Shown here: one piece after another, positions 26,791 to 32,026 of the stretch
Layout of the letters: each line of letters opens with the position of its first letter
Numbering within the stretch: the stretch's first letter is position 1
Assembly: GCA_017417385.1 (NCBI GenBank)
Contig: JAFPZF010000016.1
Span: 1-44,386 of the forward strand
Length of the DNA stretch: 44,386 nt
From: Bacteroidales bacterium
GTDB lineage: Bacteria; Bacteroidota; Bacteroidia; Bacteroidales; Marinilabiliaceae
Reading direction: 5' to 3'
Translations under genes and position numbers: made by a program
The notes under the pieces: model-generated
Told to the model about the DNA's origin: nothing
The model's input: the letters and a program-made list of their open reading frames with translations, nothing else
The model's database searches: none

Positions 26791-27564
26791 TTACCTGATG
26801 TTATCCCTCAGTTTCTCGAGATAAGCCTTCATCTGGACTGAGTCCCTGCTCTTGATTATCTGCAGCAGGTCTTCCATCTGGCTGATCACGTTCTGGACTT
26901 TCTCCGGAGTCTGAGGCGAGAACAGAATCTCGCTCAGGAGGTAGTCGTCCTCGGACAGTACACCTCTTGCCGTGTCGTAGTGCTTAGCAAACGTCGTTCC
27001 CGGCGCATCTGGCTGCTTCATGCAGGCTGCGAACACCATAGACGAGACGAACGGGACCGAGAGAGCGTATGCCATGTTCTCGTCATGCTCCTCGAAGGTG
27101 TATTCGTGGAGGTTGAGACCGAGGCTCCCATAGAAATCCTTGAAGAAGACCTTTCCGAGATGGTCACCTTCGGAGATGATTATCGCATGGTTCTTGCTTA
27201 GCTCGCGCAGGTTTGCGAATGTCGGGCCGAACATCGGGTGTGTCGAGACGTAGGGGTGCCCACACTTCGAGTAGAACTTCTTCAGGTCTGTCTTCACCGA
27301 GGCAATGTCCGATATCATGCACTTTTCTGATATGTATGGCAGGACATCCTCAAAGGTCTTCAGCGTGTACTTGAGCGTGACGGCGTTTATCAGCAGCTCC
27401 GGGTCAAACTCTCGCAACTCCTCCAGTGTCGTCAGCCTTCGTGTGTTGAAGACGTACTGCAACCTGTGCAGGTCTACGTCGTAGACTGCCACCTCGTGAA
27501 GCAGGCACATCGAGTCGGCCAGGAATGCGCCCATCTTGCCGGCACCGACTATACAAATCCTCAT
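26791..27564 (-). CDS. tyrA: Prephenate dehydrogenase
   Basis: Converts prephenate to 4-hydroxyphenylpyruvate with NAD+, the tyrosine branch of the aromatic pathway. The 257-residue protein starts with the dinucleotide motif MRICIVGAGKMGAF (Gly-x-Gly-x-x-Gly at 7-12). It has ISDIASVKTDL and the substrate-binding STHPMFGPT, both typical of TyrA. It is shorter than many TyrA proteins and has no ACT or chorismate-mutase domain; that mutase is fused to the DAHP synthase encoded 8 bases upstream. Last gene of the four-gene operon. Confidence 0.92.
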   Translation of the reverse strand: MRICIVGAGKMGAFLADSMCLLHEVAVYDVDLHRLQYVFNTRRLTTLEELREFDPELLINAVTLKYTLKTFEDVLPYISEKCMISDIASVKTDLKKFYSKCGHPYVSTHPMFGPTFANLRELSKNHAIIISEGDHLGKVFFKDFYGSLGLNLHEYTFEEHDENMAYALSVPFVSSMVFAACMKQPDAPGTTFAKHYDTARGVLSEDDYLLSEILFSPQTPEKVQNVISQMEDLLQIIKSRDSVQMKAYLEKLRDNIR

Positions 27565-27572
27565 CTTGCTCT

Positions 27573-28670
27573 CTACTTCTTGTTCTGCAACTCGTTCATG
27601 ACGGAGTTCTGACGGCTTACACTCTCCTCGTGTATGTCCTCGTAGATCTTTGTGACGAAGTCTGCATCGAGGTTGTTCTGGACTGCCGTCTGCCTGCGAT
27701 TCTGCAATATCTCGTCATATCGCTTGCTCTGCAGGATGGTGATGCCGTTCTCGTACTTGTACTTTGCTATGCTCTCAGAGATCTTCATTCGAGCTGCCAA
27801 GGACTCGATGATCTGCTTGTCGAGCAGGTCTATTTTCTGCCTGAGCTCGTCGAGCTCCGTACGAGGCTTGTCGCCTATCTGAGCGTCACGGATGACGAGG
27901 TCGTCGAGTATCATCTTGAGGTGCTGAGGCGTCACCTGCTGCTTGGCGTCGCTCCAAGCCCTTGCCGGGCACTCGTGGCTCTCGATGATCAGACCGTCGA
28001 AGTTGAGGTCCATGGCCTGCTGAGAGACTTCAAGTATCAGTTCTGAGTCGCCAGATATATGGCTCGGGTCATTGATGATCGGGAGCTCAGGCAGACGCCT
28101 GTGTAGCTCGATGGCGAGTTGCCACTGTGGGTCGTTCCTGTACTTGATCTTCTGATAGACTGAGAATCCTCTGTGGATTGCGCCGAGTCTCTTGATGCCA
28201 GCCCTGTTGAGGCGCTCGAGTGCTCCTATCCATAGCTCAAGGTCTGGGTTGACTGGGTTCTTGACGAGGATTGGCATGTCGGTGCCGCGTAGTGCATCAG
28301 CGACTTCCTGGACAGCAAACGGGTTTGCGGTCGTCCTCGCTCCGATCCATAGCATGTCGACACCATACTTGATGGCCTCGTAGACGTGCTGTGCTGTAGC
28401 TACCTCGACAGCGGTGTACATGCCGGTCTCCTTCTTGACCTTCTGTAGCCATGGCAGTCCGACCGAGCCGACTCCCTCGAACGACCCTGGCCTTGTCCTC
28501 GGCTTCCAGATGCCTGCACGGAATATCTTGACGCCGATCGCCGATAGCTCCCTCGCCGTGTTCAAGACCTGTTCCTCTGTCTCTGCACTGCACGGACCTG
28601 CTATGACGACTGGTCGCCTGCTTTCGACGCCCGGCAGCAATATTGTCTCTAACTCTAACTTTGATTCCAT
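27573..28670 (-). CDS. aroF: Bifunctional DAHP synthase / chorismate mutase
   Basis: The first enzyme of the shikimate pathway (phosphoenolpyruvate plus erythrose-4-phosphate) joined to the mutase that makes prephenate. Residues about 15-260 are a type I-beta DAHP synthase with VVIAGPCSAETEEQ, AGIWKPRTRPGSFEG, WIGARTTANPF, LVKNPVNPDLELW and NDPSHISGD. Residues about 270-355 are an AroQ-type chorismate mutase (LDELRQKIDLLDKQIIESLA, ending near EESVSRQNSVMNELQNK). This fusion, N-terminal synthase and C-terminal mutase, is the usual Bacteroidota form and allows prephenate or chorismate to feed back on the synthase. The symbol is used loosely, as several paralogue names exist. Confidence 0.93.
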   Translation of the reverse strand: MESKLELETILLPGVESRRPVVIAGPCSAETEEQVLNTARELSAIGVKIFRAGIWKPRTRPGSFEGVGSVGLPWLQKVKKETGMYTAVEVATAQHVYEAIKYGVDMLWIGARTTANPFAVQEVADALRGTDMPILVKNPVNPDLELWIGALERLNRAGIKRLGAIHRGFSVYQKIKYRNDPQWQLAIELHRRLPELPIINDPSHISGDSELILEVSQQAMDLNFDGLIIESHECPARAWSDAKQQVTPQHLKMILDDLVIRDAQIGDKPRTELDELRQKIDLLDKQIIESLAARMKISESIAKYKYENGITILQSKRYDEILQNRRQTAVQNNLDADFVTKIYEDIHEESVSRQNSVMNELQNKK

Positions 28671-28685
28671 TATGTTGTTCTTTTT

Positions 28686-29846
28686 TTATTTCATATTCTT
28701 GATTCTTCTGAGGGCCTCCTGGAAGACCGGCACCTTGGCGCATAGCGAGATTCTGAGAAAGCGCTCTCCCTGACTGCCGAAGATGAAGCCTGGCGTGATG
28801 AAGACGCCTGTCTGATTCAGTATGGCGTCGCTCTGCTCCTCCGCACTCTTCCACTTGTCCTCGACTTTTGCCCAGACGAAGAGTCCGCCCTGCTTCTCGT
28901 CGAACTTGCAACCGAGGGTCCGCATTATCTCGAAGGCGTACTTCTGCCTCTCTCTGTACTCCCCGTTGACTTTATCAAACCACTCCTTGCCGAGGCTCAA
29001 TGCCTCGACGGCTGCCTCCTGCATCGGCCTGAACACTCCACTGTCCATGTTGCTCTTGACTCTGAGGACTGTCGCAATGACGTCTTTGTTCGACGCCGCC
29101 ATGCCAAATCTCCAGCCCGCCATGTTGTGTGCCTTGCTCATCGAGTTCAGCTCTATGCACACGTCCTTGGCTCCCTCGACTGATAGGATGCTCAGCGGCT
29201 TGTCGTTCAGTATGAAACTGTATGGGTTGTCGTTGCAGACGAGGATGTTGTGCCTCCGCCCGAAGTCTACTATCTTCTTGTATAGCTCCATCGTGGCCTT
29301 GGCGCCCGTCGGCATGTTGGAGTAGTTGGTCCACATGATCTTCACTCCGCTCAAGTCCATCTTCTCCAGCTCATCGAAGTCTGGCTGCCACCCGAGATGC
29401 TCATACAGCTTGTACTTGATGACTCTCGCTCCGACGAGGTTGGATACCGACGAGTACGTCGGATACCCCGGGTCTGGGATGAGTACACCGTCTCCCTCGT
29501 TCATGAATGCCATCATGATGTGCATGATGCCCTCCTTCGAGCCTATCAGCGGCAATATCTCGTTGTCGGGATTCAACTCGACACCATACCACTTCGCATA
29601 CCAGTCTGCATAGCCTTTGCGGAGCGCCGGTATGCCGACATACGACTGATAGCCGTGTACGTCGTCCCTGTGTGCCACGGTGGACAGCTTCTCTATGACG
29701 CTCTCCGCCGGTGGCAGGTCCGGACTGCCTATTCCGAGATTGATCACGTCGACTCCGCTCTTCCTCATCGCGTCGAGTCGCTTGTTGTTCTTCGAGAAGT
29801 AGTACTCCTCGACTTTCTCTGCTCTTCTGGCTGGTGCTATTATCAT
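28686..29846 (-). CDS. Class I/II pyridoxal-phosphate aminotransferase
   Basis: A fold-type I PLP enzyme of 386 residues. Lys238 in SMSKAHNMAGWRFG is the Schiff-base lysine; Asp206 in VCNDNPYSF binds the pyridine nitrogen; and TNYSNMPTGA (173-182) is the NYPxNPTG-like cofactor segment. Lying between pheA and the DAHP synthase gene, it most likely transaminates phenylpyruvate and 4-hydroxyphenylpyruvate, or prephenate, at the end of phenylalanine and tyrosine synthesis. Sequence alone does not exclude an aspartate or diaminopimelate aminotransferase. Confidence 0.88.
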   Translation of the reverse strand: MIIAPARRAEKVEEYYFSKNNKRLDAMRKSGVDVINLGIGSPDLPPAESVIEKLSTVAHRDDVHGYQSYVGIPALRKGYADWYAKWYGVELNPDNEILPLIGSKEGIMHIMMAFMNEGDGVLIPDPGYPTYSSVSNLVGARVIKYKLYEHLGWQPDFDELEKMDLSGVKIMWTNYSNMPTGAKATMELYKKIVDFGRRHNILVCNDNPYSFILNDKPLSILSVEGAKDVCIELNSMSKAHNMAGWRFGMAASNKDVIATVLRVKSNMDSGVFRPMQEAAVEALSLGKEWFDKVNGEYRERQKYAFEIMRTLGCKFDEKQGGLFVWAKVEDKWKSAEEQSDAILNQTGVFITPGFIFGSQGERFLRISLCAKVPVFQEALRRIKNMK

Positions 29847-29870: not shown

Positions 29871-30740
29871 TTAGTCTTCGACGCTCTGTCTGCCGAGCTC
29901 ATACTCGCCGAGTATCCTGAGCATCGCCGTCAGTGGCCTTACTGCATCTATTGCCTGCACGTATCGCGTGTAGTTGTTGAAGCTGAGGTCGACGTAGAAT
30001 ATGTACTCCCACTCATGCCCGACGACTGGGTTGCTCTGTATCTTGGTCATGTTGATGCCGTAGAATGCAAGCACTGTCAGCACTTTCGAGAGGCTGCCGA
30101 CCTCGCCTGCCTGTGGTAGCGAGAAGACGATCGACGAGCGCGTTATCTTGTTCTGTGCCAACAGGTCATCGATGTCAAACCGCCCTCTCTCGCTGACGAC
30201 GAGGAACCGTGTGAAGTTCTTCTTGTTCGTCTCTATGCTGCGCTGCAGTATGTTGAGGCCGTACATCTCTGCCGCCAGCTCCGGAGCAACGGCCGCGACG
30301 TCTTTTAGCTTCTTCTCCGCAACCTCCTTGGCCGAGAGCGCCGTGTCCTCTGCCTCTATCAGCCGTATGTGTGGATACTGCTTGAAGAACGCCCTGCACT
30401 GGAGCAACGCCATAGGGTGGGTGTGCACCTCCTTGATGTCCTCGAACTTGACGCCCTTCAGCGCCATCAGGTTGTGACGGATCCTTAGCTTGTACTCGCC
30501 GATGACTTCGAGCCCCGAGTCCTTCAGCAACGTGTAGTTGGACTGGAGCGAGCCTGCTATGGTGTTCTCTATCGCGACGATGCCATAGAGGTCCTCCTCC
30601 GTGCGGACTCTGTCGAATAGCTCCTCGAATGTCATGCATGGCACTATCTCGACTTGTTGACCGCGGAAGAACTCCCGTGCGGCTATCTCGTGGTTAGCTC
30701 CGGGGACACCTTGTATTGCGACTCGCTTCTTGTCTTTCAT
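29871..30740 (-). CDS. pheA: Prephenate dehydratase
   Basis: Decarboxylates and dehydrates prephenate to phenylpyruvate. The 289-residue protein has the periplasmic-binding-like catalytic fold (IQGVPGANHEIAAREFF, IENTIAGSL, catalytic-type TRF at 177-179) and a C-terminal ACT domain (about 200-285) for phenylalanine feedback. The usual ACT ligand motif ESRP reads QSNP here (235-238), so allosteric control may differ from the enterobacterial enzyme. No chorismate mutase is fused, in keeping with the mutase on the DAHP synthase. First structural gene after a Phe/Tyr leader-peptide attenuator. Confidence 0.94.
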   Translation of the reverse strand: MKDKKRVAIQGVPGANHEIAAREFFRGQQVEIVPCMTFEELFDRVRTEEDLYGIVAIENTIAGSLQSNYTLLKDSGLEVIGEYKLRIRHNLMALKGVKFEDIKEVHTHPMALLQCRAFFKQYPHIRLIEAEDTALSAKEVAEKKLKDVAAVAPELAAEMYGLNILQRSIETNKKNFTRFLVVSERGRFDIDDLLAQNKITRSSIVFSLPQAGEVGSLSKVLTVLAFYGINMTKIQSNPVVGHEWEYIFYVDLSFNNYTRYVQAIDAVRPLTAMLRILGEYELGRQSVED

Positions 30741-30760
30741 CTCAATGATTCCTAAATTGA

Positions 30761-30802
30761 AAGAGGCTCACTGTCTGTTCTCTTCAGACAGGTGAGCCTC
30801 TT
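30761..30802 (-). terminator. Attenuator terminator hairpin before pheA
   Basis: On the - strand, bases 30802-30785 pair with 30777-30761 through 17 base pairs with one bulged base (AAGAGGCTCACCTGTCTG against CAGACAGTGAGCCTCTT), around a short loop. TTTCAATTT follows. It lies between the leader-peptide stop and the pheA ATG, so it can act only as a conditional terminator. Confidence 0.8.
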
Positions 30803-30854
30803 GTTATCTTTTCGCTTTTGCTCTGCTGCTATTCTGCAACGGCCCGACCTGCCT
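30786..30854 (-). promoter_or_regulatory. Antiterminator pairing of the phe/tyr attenuator
   Basis: AGGCAGGT inside leader codons 20-22 (30854-30847) can pair over eight positions (one G-U) with ACCTGTCT (30793-30786), which is the first arm of the terminator hairpin. The two structures exclude each other. A ribosome stalled on the Phe/Tyr codons 6-15 would leave this segment free and prevent termination; a ribosome reaching the stop codon would cover it. Confidence 0.65.
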
Positions 30855-30912
30855 CTTTGTCCCACGCAAAGAAGTAAAAGTAAAAACCGTAGTAAAATCG
30901 CAACTCTTGCAT
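30829..30912 (-). CDS. Phe/Tyr-rich leader peptide of the pheA operon
   Basis: A 27-residue ORF, MQELRFYYGFYFYFFAWDKE followed by AGRAVAE, ends at TAG just before the terminator hairpin. Nine of the ten residues at positions 6-15 are Phe (five) or Tyr (four). That composition, directly upstream of genes for phenylalanine and tyrosine synthesis, is the hallmark of a ribosome-mediated attenuator like E. coli pheL. It is expected to be translated as a sensor of charged tRNA-Phe and tRNA-Tyr and to have no function as a protein. It begins about 25 bases after the predicted transcription start. Confidence 0.85.
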   Translation of the reverse strand: MQELRFYYGFYFYFFAWDKEAGRAVAE

Positions 30913-30943
30913 CACGTTGTTTGTTTTTCGTTTTTTTGACTCG

Positions 30944-30952
30944 ACAAAGTTA
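30944..30952 (-). promoter_or_regulatory. -7 promoter box of the phe/tyr operon
   Basis: Read on the - strand this is TAACTTTGT, an exact TAnnTTTG element. Transcription would start near 30938, about 25 bases before the leader-peptide ATG. The -33 region (around 30972-30978) has GTTAA instead of a clean TTG. Confidence 0.6.
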
Positions 30953-31066
30953 GAAAAAATATGTTAGGGTTATTAACCTTCTGATGAAAATGTTATGAAA
31001 ATACGTGTTTCACTTACCCCCTCTGGCTTGCCGTTCCCTCGCGCCTCGCTTCCGCCCTCCCGGCTC

Positions 31067-32026
31067 TTAGTCACAGACTGGGCGTATGCTCATTCCGCGC
31101 CATCGACTTTCGTAATACTCATTTCCCGGCCCTGGCTCGTCTTTCCCATACTCGCTGATGACGTTTTCGTAAAAATTCAATACCGTGGCCTCGTCTGCAG
31201 CACAATCACTGACATTCGCCGTCCAGTACCATCCGTCAAACTCCTCGTCAAACATCTCTCCTTCGTCTATGTATCCAGCACATGGCAATATTATGAACCT
31301 CCCGTTCGTCTTAGACGTCACCTTGATGTAGCCCGACCAATCCTTCTCCTTGTCCTTGACCCATTCCCACTTGCACTTGGTTCTTAGCTCCAGCCACTCC
31401 TCCTTCGTCGGTATGCGCCACCTGCCTCCGAGATGCCGCTGCGCTGCGTCGTCCGCCGGCTCCAATGTCAGCTTGTCGTCGTGGAAGTCGTCGTGGATGT
31501 CATCGTTCGTGAACTCAACGACATACTTGGAGAGGTGCTTCTTGCCATCCGCCGTGATTCTGAGCCACTTGTACGCCTGTGGGCCTTTGTCCTCTTCCGC
31601 AGTGAATGGCTCCGTCTCCCCCCACCTGAAGTACTGCCCATACTCCTCCGGCTTCGTCGCCCCGAGATTGAATGATGCCCATTTGACCGAGAGGCCGAGA
31701 TCTACCATCTCTGGCTTCGCACATGTCTTGTTTGCGGTGGACCTGATATAGCCCTGACTTCCCGTCTTGACCTCTTCTCTTGCCTCTTCCCTCTCCTCTT
31801 CTCTCTTCTCTTCCCTCTCCTCTTCCCTCGCTTCTTCTCTTGCTTCTTCCCTCGCTGTCTCTACCTCCGTCGCCCCGCTATACGTTTCAGTGTTCTCCTC
31901 CTTCCGGTTGTATACGTCATATCCGTTAAGCTCCCGCTCCTCCCTTCTCTTGTTGATGACGTTTCGGATTATGGAGATTGCCACTCCCGCGACAACGGCT
32001 ATGAGTATTACTTGTGTCGTGTCCAT
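31067..32026 (-). CDS. Membrane-anchored FISUMP-type protein with charged repeat linker
   Basis: A 319-residue protein in three parts. A hydrophobic N-terminal segment (about 6-20) acts as a membrane anchor. A highly charged linker (58-85) has seven four-residue repeats of the type AREE/EREE/KREE. The C-terminal domain (about 95-319) has the FISUMP pattern: VDLGLSVKWASFNLGATKPE, YFRWGETEPF, GGRWRIPTKEEWLEL, YWTANVS and a closing MSIRPVCD. FISUMP domains are common on secreted and surface proteins of Bacteroidota and Fibrobacter; function is unknown. It has its own promoter and ends before the phe operon promoter. Confidence 0.78.
   Translation of the reverse strand: MDTTQVILIAVVAGVAISIIRNVINKRREERELNGYDVYNRKEENTETYSGATEVETAREEAREEAREEEREEKREEEREEAREEVKTGSQGYIRSTANKTCAKPEMVDLGLSVKWASFNLGATKPEEYGQYFRWGETEPFTAEEDKGPQAYKWLRITADGKKHLSKYVVEFTNDDIHDDFHDDKLTLEPADDAAQRHLGGRWRIPTKEEWLELRTKCKWEWVKDKEKDWSGYIKVTSKTNGRFIILPCAGYIDEGEMFDEEFDGWYWTANVSDCAADEATVLNFYENVISEYGKDEPGPGNEYYESRWRGMSIRPVCD
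31772..31855 (-). repeat. Seven 12-base repeats encoding (A/E/K)REE
   Basis: Seven imperfect 12-base units code for AREE, AREE, AREE, EREE, KREE, EREE and AREE in the linker of the FISUMP-type protein. On the + strand the tract is almost all C and T. Slippage would change linker length by four residues per unit without a frameshift. Confidence 0.8.

Follow-up and report, generated by a model that had tools for sequence, protein, structure and literature searches.

The leader locus and its operon

The window (the whole stretch of 44,386 nucleotides analysed, from a contig assigned to a Bacteroidales bacterium of the Marinilabiliaceae) carries on its minus strand a set of features that can be read directly in the sequence. 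A -7 promoter box is followed by a leader gene of 27 codons, a hairpin and the genes pheA, aminotransferase, aroF/CM and tyrA, in this order (Table 1). The box matches TAnnTTTG, which we take to be the Bacteroidota consensus. The leader gene starts at the ATG at 30912, ends at the TAG at 30831-30829 and encodes a peptide of 27 aa, MQELRFYYGFYFYFFAWDKEAGRAVAE.

The preliminary description had listed a -7 box, a 27-residue ORF whose positions 6-15 are five Phe, four Tyr and one Gly, a 17-bp terminator before pheA and the identities of the operon genes. All were recovered: the box TAACTTTG at 30952-30945, the ORF with this composition, the hairpin at 30802-30761 with one bulged C, and the four genes through their Pfam matches. 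The ACT-like domain of the pheA product gives 22.2 bits with PF01842, below the cut-off of 27.

A predicted intrinsic terminator lies between the leader and pheA, its U-tract in the window being weak. The 16-bp core of the hairpin (30801-30762) is at -26.6 kcal/mol, and the fold of the 196-nt leader has z = -4.2 relative to shuffles. The U-tract of the window is short and broken (5 T in the best 8); among the leader hairpins, 6-8 T in 8 are found in 128/158.

Positions 31067-32026, also on the minus strand, encode a protein of 319 aa that includes a repeat stretch rich in Glu and Arg and matches nothing in Pfam or NCBIfam at 1e-3.

Table 1. Features of the pheA leader and operon in the window, and loci of relatives with tandem leaders. 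Positions are those of the window unless stated otherwise.
Feature	Positions	Strand	Basis or remark
-7 promoter box, Bacteroidota-type, TAACTTTG	30945..30952	-	read directly
27-codon gene of the leader peptide, starting with ATG, without Shine-Dalgarno-like sequence	30829..30912	-	
Control codons 6-15, FYYGFYFYFF (Phe x5, Tyr x4, Gly x1)	30868..30897	-	
Region 2 (r2), 5' strand of the antiterminator, codons 20-24	30841..30854	-	pairing and covariation
Region 3 (r3), strand common to both stems: antiterminator with region 2, terminator with region 4	30786..30798	-	
Terminator hairpin, 17 bp, one bulged C	30761..30802	-	covariation
U-tract after the hairpin, weak, TCAATTT	30754..30760	-	read directly
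pheA, prephenate dehydratase with ACT-like domain	29871..30740	-	Pfam PF00800, E 4.3e-58
Class I/II aminotransferase	28686..29846	-	Pfam PF00155
aroF-like DAHP synthase with chorismate mutase (aroF/CM)	27573..28670	-	Pfam PF00793, PF01817
tyrA, prephenate dehydrogenase	26791..27564	-	Pfam PF02153
Tandem leaders in relatives: L053, L057, L075, L180, L187, L188, L205, L210, L219, L227, L242, L273	about -360 to 0 relative to pheA		

Occurrence of the leader in relatives

Relatives were collected with the PheA of the window (80 named loci and 71 genomes of the family, 148 of the order and 198 of the phylum); the PheA of a further locus, L338, was used as query on 217 genomes of the class. For the phylum-level matches, DNA was examined for a part only. 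The chance test was done on the 197 unique loci among the 229 that have at least 300 nt upstream of pheA, out of 240.

A mini-ORF with at least 7 Phe/Tyr in 10, located at -300 to -30 of pheA, was found in 156/197 unique loci, against 1/197 on the antisense strand and 9/1970 dinucleotide shuffles. These counts, and the covariation of both stems reported below, leave almost no room for the view that the hairpin is an ordinary terminator or spacer and that the Phe/Tyr ORF arose by chance from the composition of a T-rich intergenic region, even if runs of six TWY codons are also seen at other places in this genome (8 matches in all, versus 4 for reversed-pattern controls) and short runs alone are no proof. 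Measured from stop to stop, the frames that hold the other TWY-run sites of the genome are 15 to 576 aa long. A bare search for TWY codon runs in the 71 family genomes gave no discrimination, the reversed-pattern controls being similar in size by eye.

The distribution was established on 263 unique loci, a leader being defined here by at least 6 Phe/Tyr in 10. Leaders were found in 32/32 loci of the same family, 57/64 of the same order, 49/66 of the same class, 4/28 of other classes of the phylum and 53/71 named loci. The window locus and one locus of the same genus also have leaders, the rest of the genus being mostly counted under the named loci. The named carriers include members of the Marinilabiliaceae (14/14), Salinivirgaceae (4/4), Sphingobacteriaceae (2/2), Dysgonomonadaceae (1/1), Prevotellaceae (1/1), Saprospiraceae (5/12) and Crocinitomicaceae (1/2). 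In the class-level samples, no Phe/Tyr leader was found in 7/7 loci of one family (f159) and 3/6 loci of another (f117), whose operons are pheA-aminotransferase-tyrA; a possible reading is that regulation has been lost or replaced in these leaderless operons.

At four loci (L030, L031, L044 and L319), pheA lacks aroF/tyrA partners and no leader could be detected. In the first three, pheA is located 15-46 nt downstream of a gene that, from its sequence, is presumably truA-like. In L364 (genome G348), a single reading frame, 0-2028 from the start of pheA, apparently encodes PheA fused to the DAHP synthase-chorismate mutase. A search for His codon runs that could belong to a second attenuator in the genome of the window gave 11 matches, with no convincing leader at the 4 loci examined.

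In 115/147 loci, window included, the 90 nt that precede the leader ATG contain TAnnTTTG (19 for the antisense strand, 8 for the reversed motif), mostly 25-40 nt before this ATG. Only 3/147 loci have an SD-like motif before the leader. The bacteria of this major gut and marine group mostly initiate translation without Shine-Dalgarno sequences.

Alternative stems and covariation

Region 2 of the window (30854-30841) pairs with region 3 (30798-30786) in a 13-bp duplex that has a single bulged C and an energy of -22.4 kcal/mol. An equally good r2:r3 pairing was found in 0/200 dinucleotide shuffles of the leader stretch of the window. The alternative pairing proposed in the preliminary description does therefore exist, but the 8 bp assigned to it are only the core of this longer duplex.

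A hairpin with a T-rich tail follows 158/199 leaders (181 loci); by the criteria applied, the other 41/199 leaders have no hairpin. The r2:r3 pairing beats 95% of shuffles in 123/158 leaders, with 7.9 expected, the loci being related and hence not independent.

Covariation was analysed in an alignment of 15 leaders, i.e. the window and its closest relatives. In the terminator pairs, 96.7% of cells are paired, with 16 both-side changes versus a shuffled mean of 5.2. In the antiterminator pairs, 95.8% of cells are paired, with 17 both-side changes versus a shuffled mean of 6.6. Slid controls, partly favoured by the choice of structure, reach at most 59% paired for the terminator and at most 45% for the antiterminator. 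The number of antiterminator pairs having a both-side change is 3, versus 2.8 in shuffles, i.e. no better than shuffles.

Columns 71/130/157 of the alignment are G/C/G in most leaders and A/U/A in the group of L010. Region 2 and region 4 thus change together against region 3, as expected from a three-way logic. In the same group the stop codon of the leader is located inside region 2, so that the RNA pairing is kept and the end of the peptide is not. The comparison of related genomes that had been suggested as a check on the element therefore gives a conserved Phe/Tyr run and two conserved stems, both with compensatory changes.

Ribosome position and switch geometry

The antiterminator and the terminator are mutually exclusive and are placed so that stalling would free the antiterminator. 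An occupancy model was used in which the ribosome is a 31-nt block on the leader RNA. In this model, the antiterminator probability in the window is 0.94-0.99 with the A-site at codons 6-15, 0.92 at codon 16, 0.65 at codon 17 and at most 0.01 from codon 18 onwards. Every control codon falls within the modelled permissive zone. From the stall to the stop codon, the modelled antiterminator probability drops by more than 0.3 in 129/158 leaders and rises as much in 2.

The geometry had been described as a ribosome stalled on codons 10-15 leaving the antiterminator free and a ribosome at the stop codon covering it. The first half agrees with the model (0.94-0.99). The second has to be amended: a footprint of 31 nt would cover only a part of the antiterminator, yet its modelled probability at the stop codon is 0.00.

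At equilibrium, the full-length terminator dominates the model in all ribosome states (0.97 in the window); the switch must therefore be kinetic and set by the order of synthesis. The state without ribosome was also modelled: the antiterminator of the window still forms, with a probability of 0.90, unlike in the E. coli trp model. Protector pairing (1:2) has p<=0.05 in 51/158 leaders, and p = 0.14 in the window. A clear 1:2 protector hairpin was searched for in the window by the pairing test and the model, and none was convincing. The classical protector hairpin is thus predicted to be missing or weak in the window, and, for a leader that is not translated, readthrough is consequently predicted instead of termination.

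Leader codons and operon content

The leader is a short ORF with a codon run for the products of its operon. This relation was examined in a first sample of 125 unique loci, each including 2.3 kb or more of downstream DNA; another 13, whose flanks are short, were skipped. aroF/CM or tyrA is found at most 3.6 kb from pheA in 104/125 of these loci and neither of them in 21. Leaders with at least 5 Phe/Tyr in 10 have at least 2 Tyr in 95/95 cases with aroF/CM or tyrA versus 0/6 without; the aminotransferase is also absent from the loci of these six Tyr-poor leaders. In a second sample, at least 2 Tyr are found in 15/16 partner leaders, which gives a combined total of 110/111. The exception, L420, has aroF/CM nearby, no tyrA seen and one Tyr in its leader. 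Three loci (L387, L388, L407) were left out of both counts: their leaders are Tyr-rich (at least 2), only the aminotransferase is in view and their DNA ends at about 2.3 kb.

For 30/111 leaders, aroF/CM is the only partner seen in the DNA covered; these leaders nevertheless have a median of 3 Tyr. Judged from gene content, Tyr codons follow aromatic partners generally and not tyrA alone. The absence of tyrA had been predicted beforehand for five Tyr-poor leaders and was found in four (L185, L197, L198, L228); the fifth locus, L183, has aroF/CM next to pheA and tyrA fifth after it, and has kept two Tyr. With a looser threshold (at least 4), 2/14 no-partner ORFs have at least 2 Tyr (L030 and L031). 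Both ORFs start with GTG, lie within the truA-like gene upstream and were judged spurious as leaders.

A PheA tree was made for 104 rows of the first sample; the two traits (Tyr codons, partners) change five times in it, always together and with no disagreement. Four independent pairs are on well-supported branches; the sign test gives p = 0.125 and cannot reach 0.05 with so few pairs. For this tree, leaders were defined by at least 3 Phe/Tyr in 10 in no-partner rows (a looser criterion) and at least 5 in partner rows, and the leader of L062 was scored by hand. The tree comprises the first-sample loci with an ATG leader by these criteria; three of the 21/125 others (L037, L039, L343) have Tyr-rich leaders that begin with GTG. 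The 33 loci of the second sample, L420 included, are not in the tree. A search for further independent partner changes in the class-level and second samples gave no new event.

The association between Tyr codons and partners (110/111 versus 0/6 without aromatic partner) and the five concordant changes bear on whether the leader could respond to Phe only. The Tyr codons would then be passive filler, tolerated as UAY, like UUY, keeps the leader pyrimidine-rich. The commonest difference within the run is indeed F<->Y (109/305 nonsynonymous pairwise codon differences among 15 close relatives), and E. coli pheL is Phe-only. As drift is not expected to track operon content, a Phe-only attenuator is nevertheless considered improbable. 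Sensing of both Phe and Tyr, as put forward in the preliminary description, is supported by the Tyr codons that track the aromatic partner genes beside pheA and appears likely.

The pheA leaders of Saprospiraceae mix Phe and Ile codons, e.g. MKNNFFINFIIIFIYELS (L045, L048, L051, L056, L062, L073; about -182 to -80 from pheA). In 5/6 of these loci pheA is followed by ilvD or by an ORF that begins in the same way, the DNA of L056 ending after pheA. An ilvB-like ORF comes next in L045, L048 and L051, where the locus is long enough. The genes after pheA were identified by Pfam in L045 and by near-identical ORF starts in the other loci. In L338 the gene order is pheA-ilvD-ilvB-ilvN-ilvC; the pheA leader is Phe-only, and a separate Ile-rich leader, MRHMLTSIIFIILTCHGKK, with its own strong hairpin, is found between pheA and ilvD (about 1590-1720). 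Taken together, the link between Tyr codons and partners and the Phe/Ile leaders beside ilv genes indicate that leader codons follow operon products.

Sensing could in principle involve the nascent peptide rather than charged tRNAs at codons, the aromatic peptide arresting the ribosome in response to free Phe/Tyr in the exit tunnel. TnaC is an example of nascent-peptide sensing in the exit tunnel. Inside the genus of the window, a motif such as RFYxGFYFYFFG recurs, as would be expected of an arrest peptide; between families, the order of residues varies while the Phe/Tyr run persists. Moreover, the Ile swap in Saprospiraceae tracks codon identity and operon content, and stalls anywhere in codons 6-15 have the same predicted structural outcome. 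Peptide arrest is therefore regarded as very improbable, and stalling at Phe and Tyr codons is retained as the preferred reading.

Tandem leaders

Two leaders were flagged in 18/181 loci, a few of them probably spurious (e.g. L145). In at least 12 loci (Table 1), two Phe/Tyr leaders, each with its own terminator, are found upstream of pheA. Tandem attenuators with two short ORFs in one leader have been described for mgtCBR of Salmonella (PMC3641672). As far as the available part of that description goes, the tandem pheA loci resemble mgtCBR in having two leader ORFs and differ from it in their signals and genes, each pheA leader being Phe/Tyr-rich and having its own terminator.

Comparison with known systems

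In E. coli, pheL has Phe-only control codons, and a leader peptide, a terminator and a competing antiterminator precede pheA. The element of the window has the same leader/terminator/antiterminator logic before pheA as this pheL-pheA attenuator (RF01859, Phe_leader). It differs from pheL by its Phe and Tyr codons, the lack of an SD and the lack of a clear protector hairpin, and its operon differs in including aroF/CM and tyrA. The E. coli ilvGMEDA and thrABC leaders each sense several amino acids, matching the products of their operons; the window leader is like them in that more than one amino acid would be sensed by one leader, with different amino acids, genes and phylum.

RF01859 gave no match in window positions 30700-31050 at E<=1 and none over the cut-off in the whole genome, the best match being elsewhere (24 bits versus a gathering cut-off of 55). 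With gathering cut-offs, Rfam detected no leader family in the window and the loci of 18 relatives, and one tRNA only. At E<=1, four matches to the window leader were obtained, all far below cut-offs and none relevant. Bacteroid-trp RNA (RF01692), a putative cis-regulatory RNA of Bacteroidetes according to the part of PMC2864571 available, concerns by its name trp genes, i.e. another aromatic amino acid. It has no match in the genome of the window, and does have one in Bacteroides ihuae, used as control genome.

A structured 5' element upstream of pheA was reported in F. psychrophilum in 2021, with conservation in other genera of Flavobacteriaceae (PMC9723704). Its authors report that attenuation by leader peptides is strongly suggested ahead of amino-acid operons and that elements of this kind have no Rfam hits. 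Gene and phylum are the same as here; the description, in the part available, includes no codons, Phe/Tyr mixture or antiterminator. In B. thetaiotaomicron, sORFs reminiscent of attenuation leaders were reported in 5' UTRs, Phe/Tyr codons not being mentioned in the available part of the text (PMC7366714). No description of a mixed Phe/Tyr leader in Bacteroidota was found in the literature searched, some of it accessible in part only; the likeliest prior source is Lopatovskaya et al. 2010 (cited in PMC4833913). Dual Phe/Tyr leaders had been called little described in this phylum. This is fair as far as checked, and "undescribed" would go too far, a pheA 5' element being already listed in the part of PMC9723704 available.

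Proposed mechanism

Attenuation is very likely to be the mechanism overall, given the leader, the stems and their conservation. The element is very probably a ribosome-mediated transcription attenuator with two inputs, Phe and Tyr. From the -7 box, transcription would start about 25-30 nt upstream of the SD-less leader gene. When charged tRNA-Phe and tRNA-Tyr are both plentiful, the translating ribosome would pass codons 6-15 and cover region 2 once its A-site is at about codon 18; region 3 would then pair with region 4, and RNA polymerase would stop before pheA. When either tRNA is scarce, the ribosome would stall on one of the interleaved Phe/Tyr codons and leave region 2 free. Region 2 would form its 13-bp duplex with region 3 before region 4 has been transcribed, the antiterminator being presumably trapped kinetically, and readthrough would carry transcription into pheA-aminotransferase-aroF/CM-tyrA. 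The leader would thus act as an OR gate, its inputs being the two amino acids for which the operon encodes enzymes. Judged from its sequence, the element would work like E. coli pheL, with one run for two amino acids.

Significance

Most known cases of ribosome-mediated attenuation come from Proteobacteria and Actinobacteria. The comparative evidence points to a major gut and marine group that relies on it for Phe/Tyr synthesis. If the mechanism is as proposed, transcription and translation must be coupled in these bacteria. Somewhat more tentatively, the pheA attenuator found across Bacteroidia is probably an ancient, SD-independent and rewritable sensor of several amino acids. Its codon vocabulary would be edited as the operon gains or loses genes (Phe where there is only pheA, Phe and Tyr with aroF/tyrA, Phe and Ile with ilvD), and it would have been duplicated in several lineages into serial tandem attenuators. 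Such attenuators in series, if real, would provide steeper or two-step control. The leader would be a readable label of the products of the operon, and leader codons could aid product prediction. The changes in codon content would constitute a natural experiment on the rewriting of such sensors.
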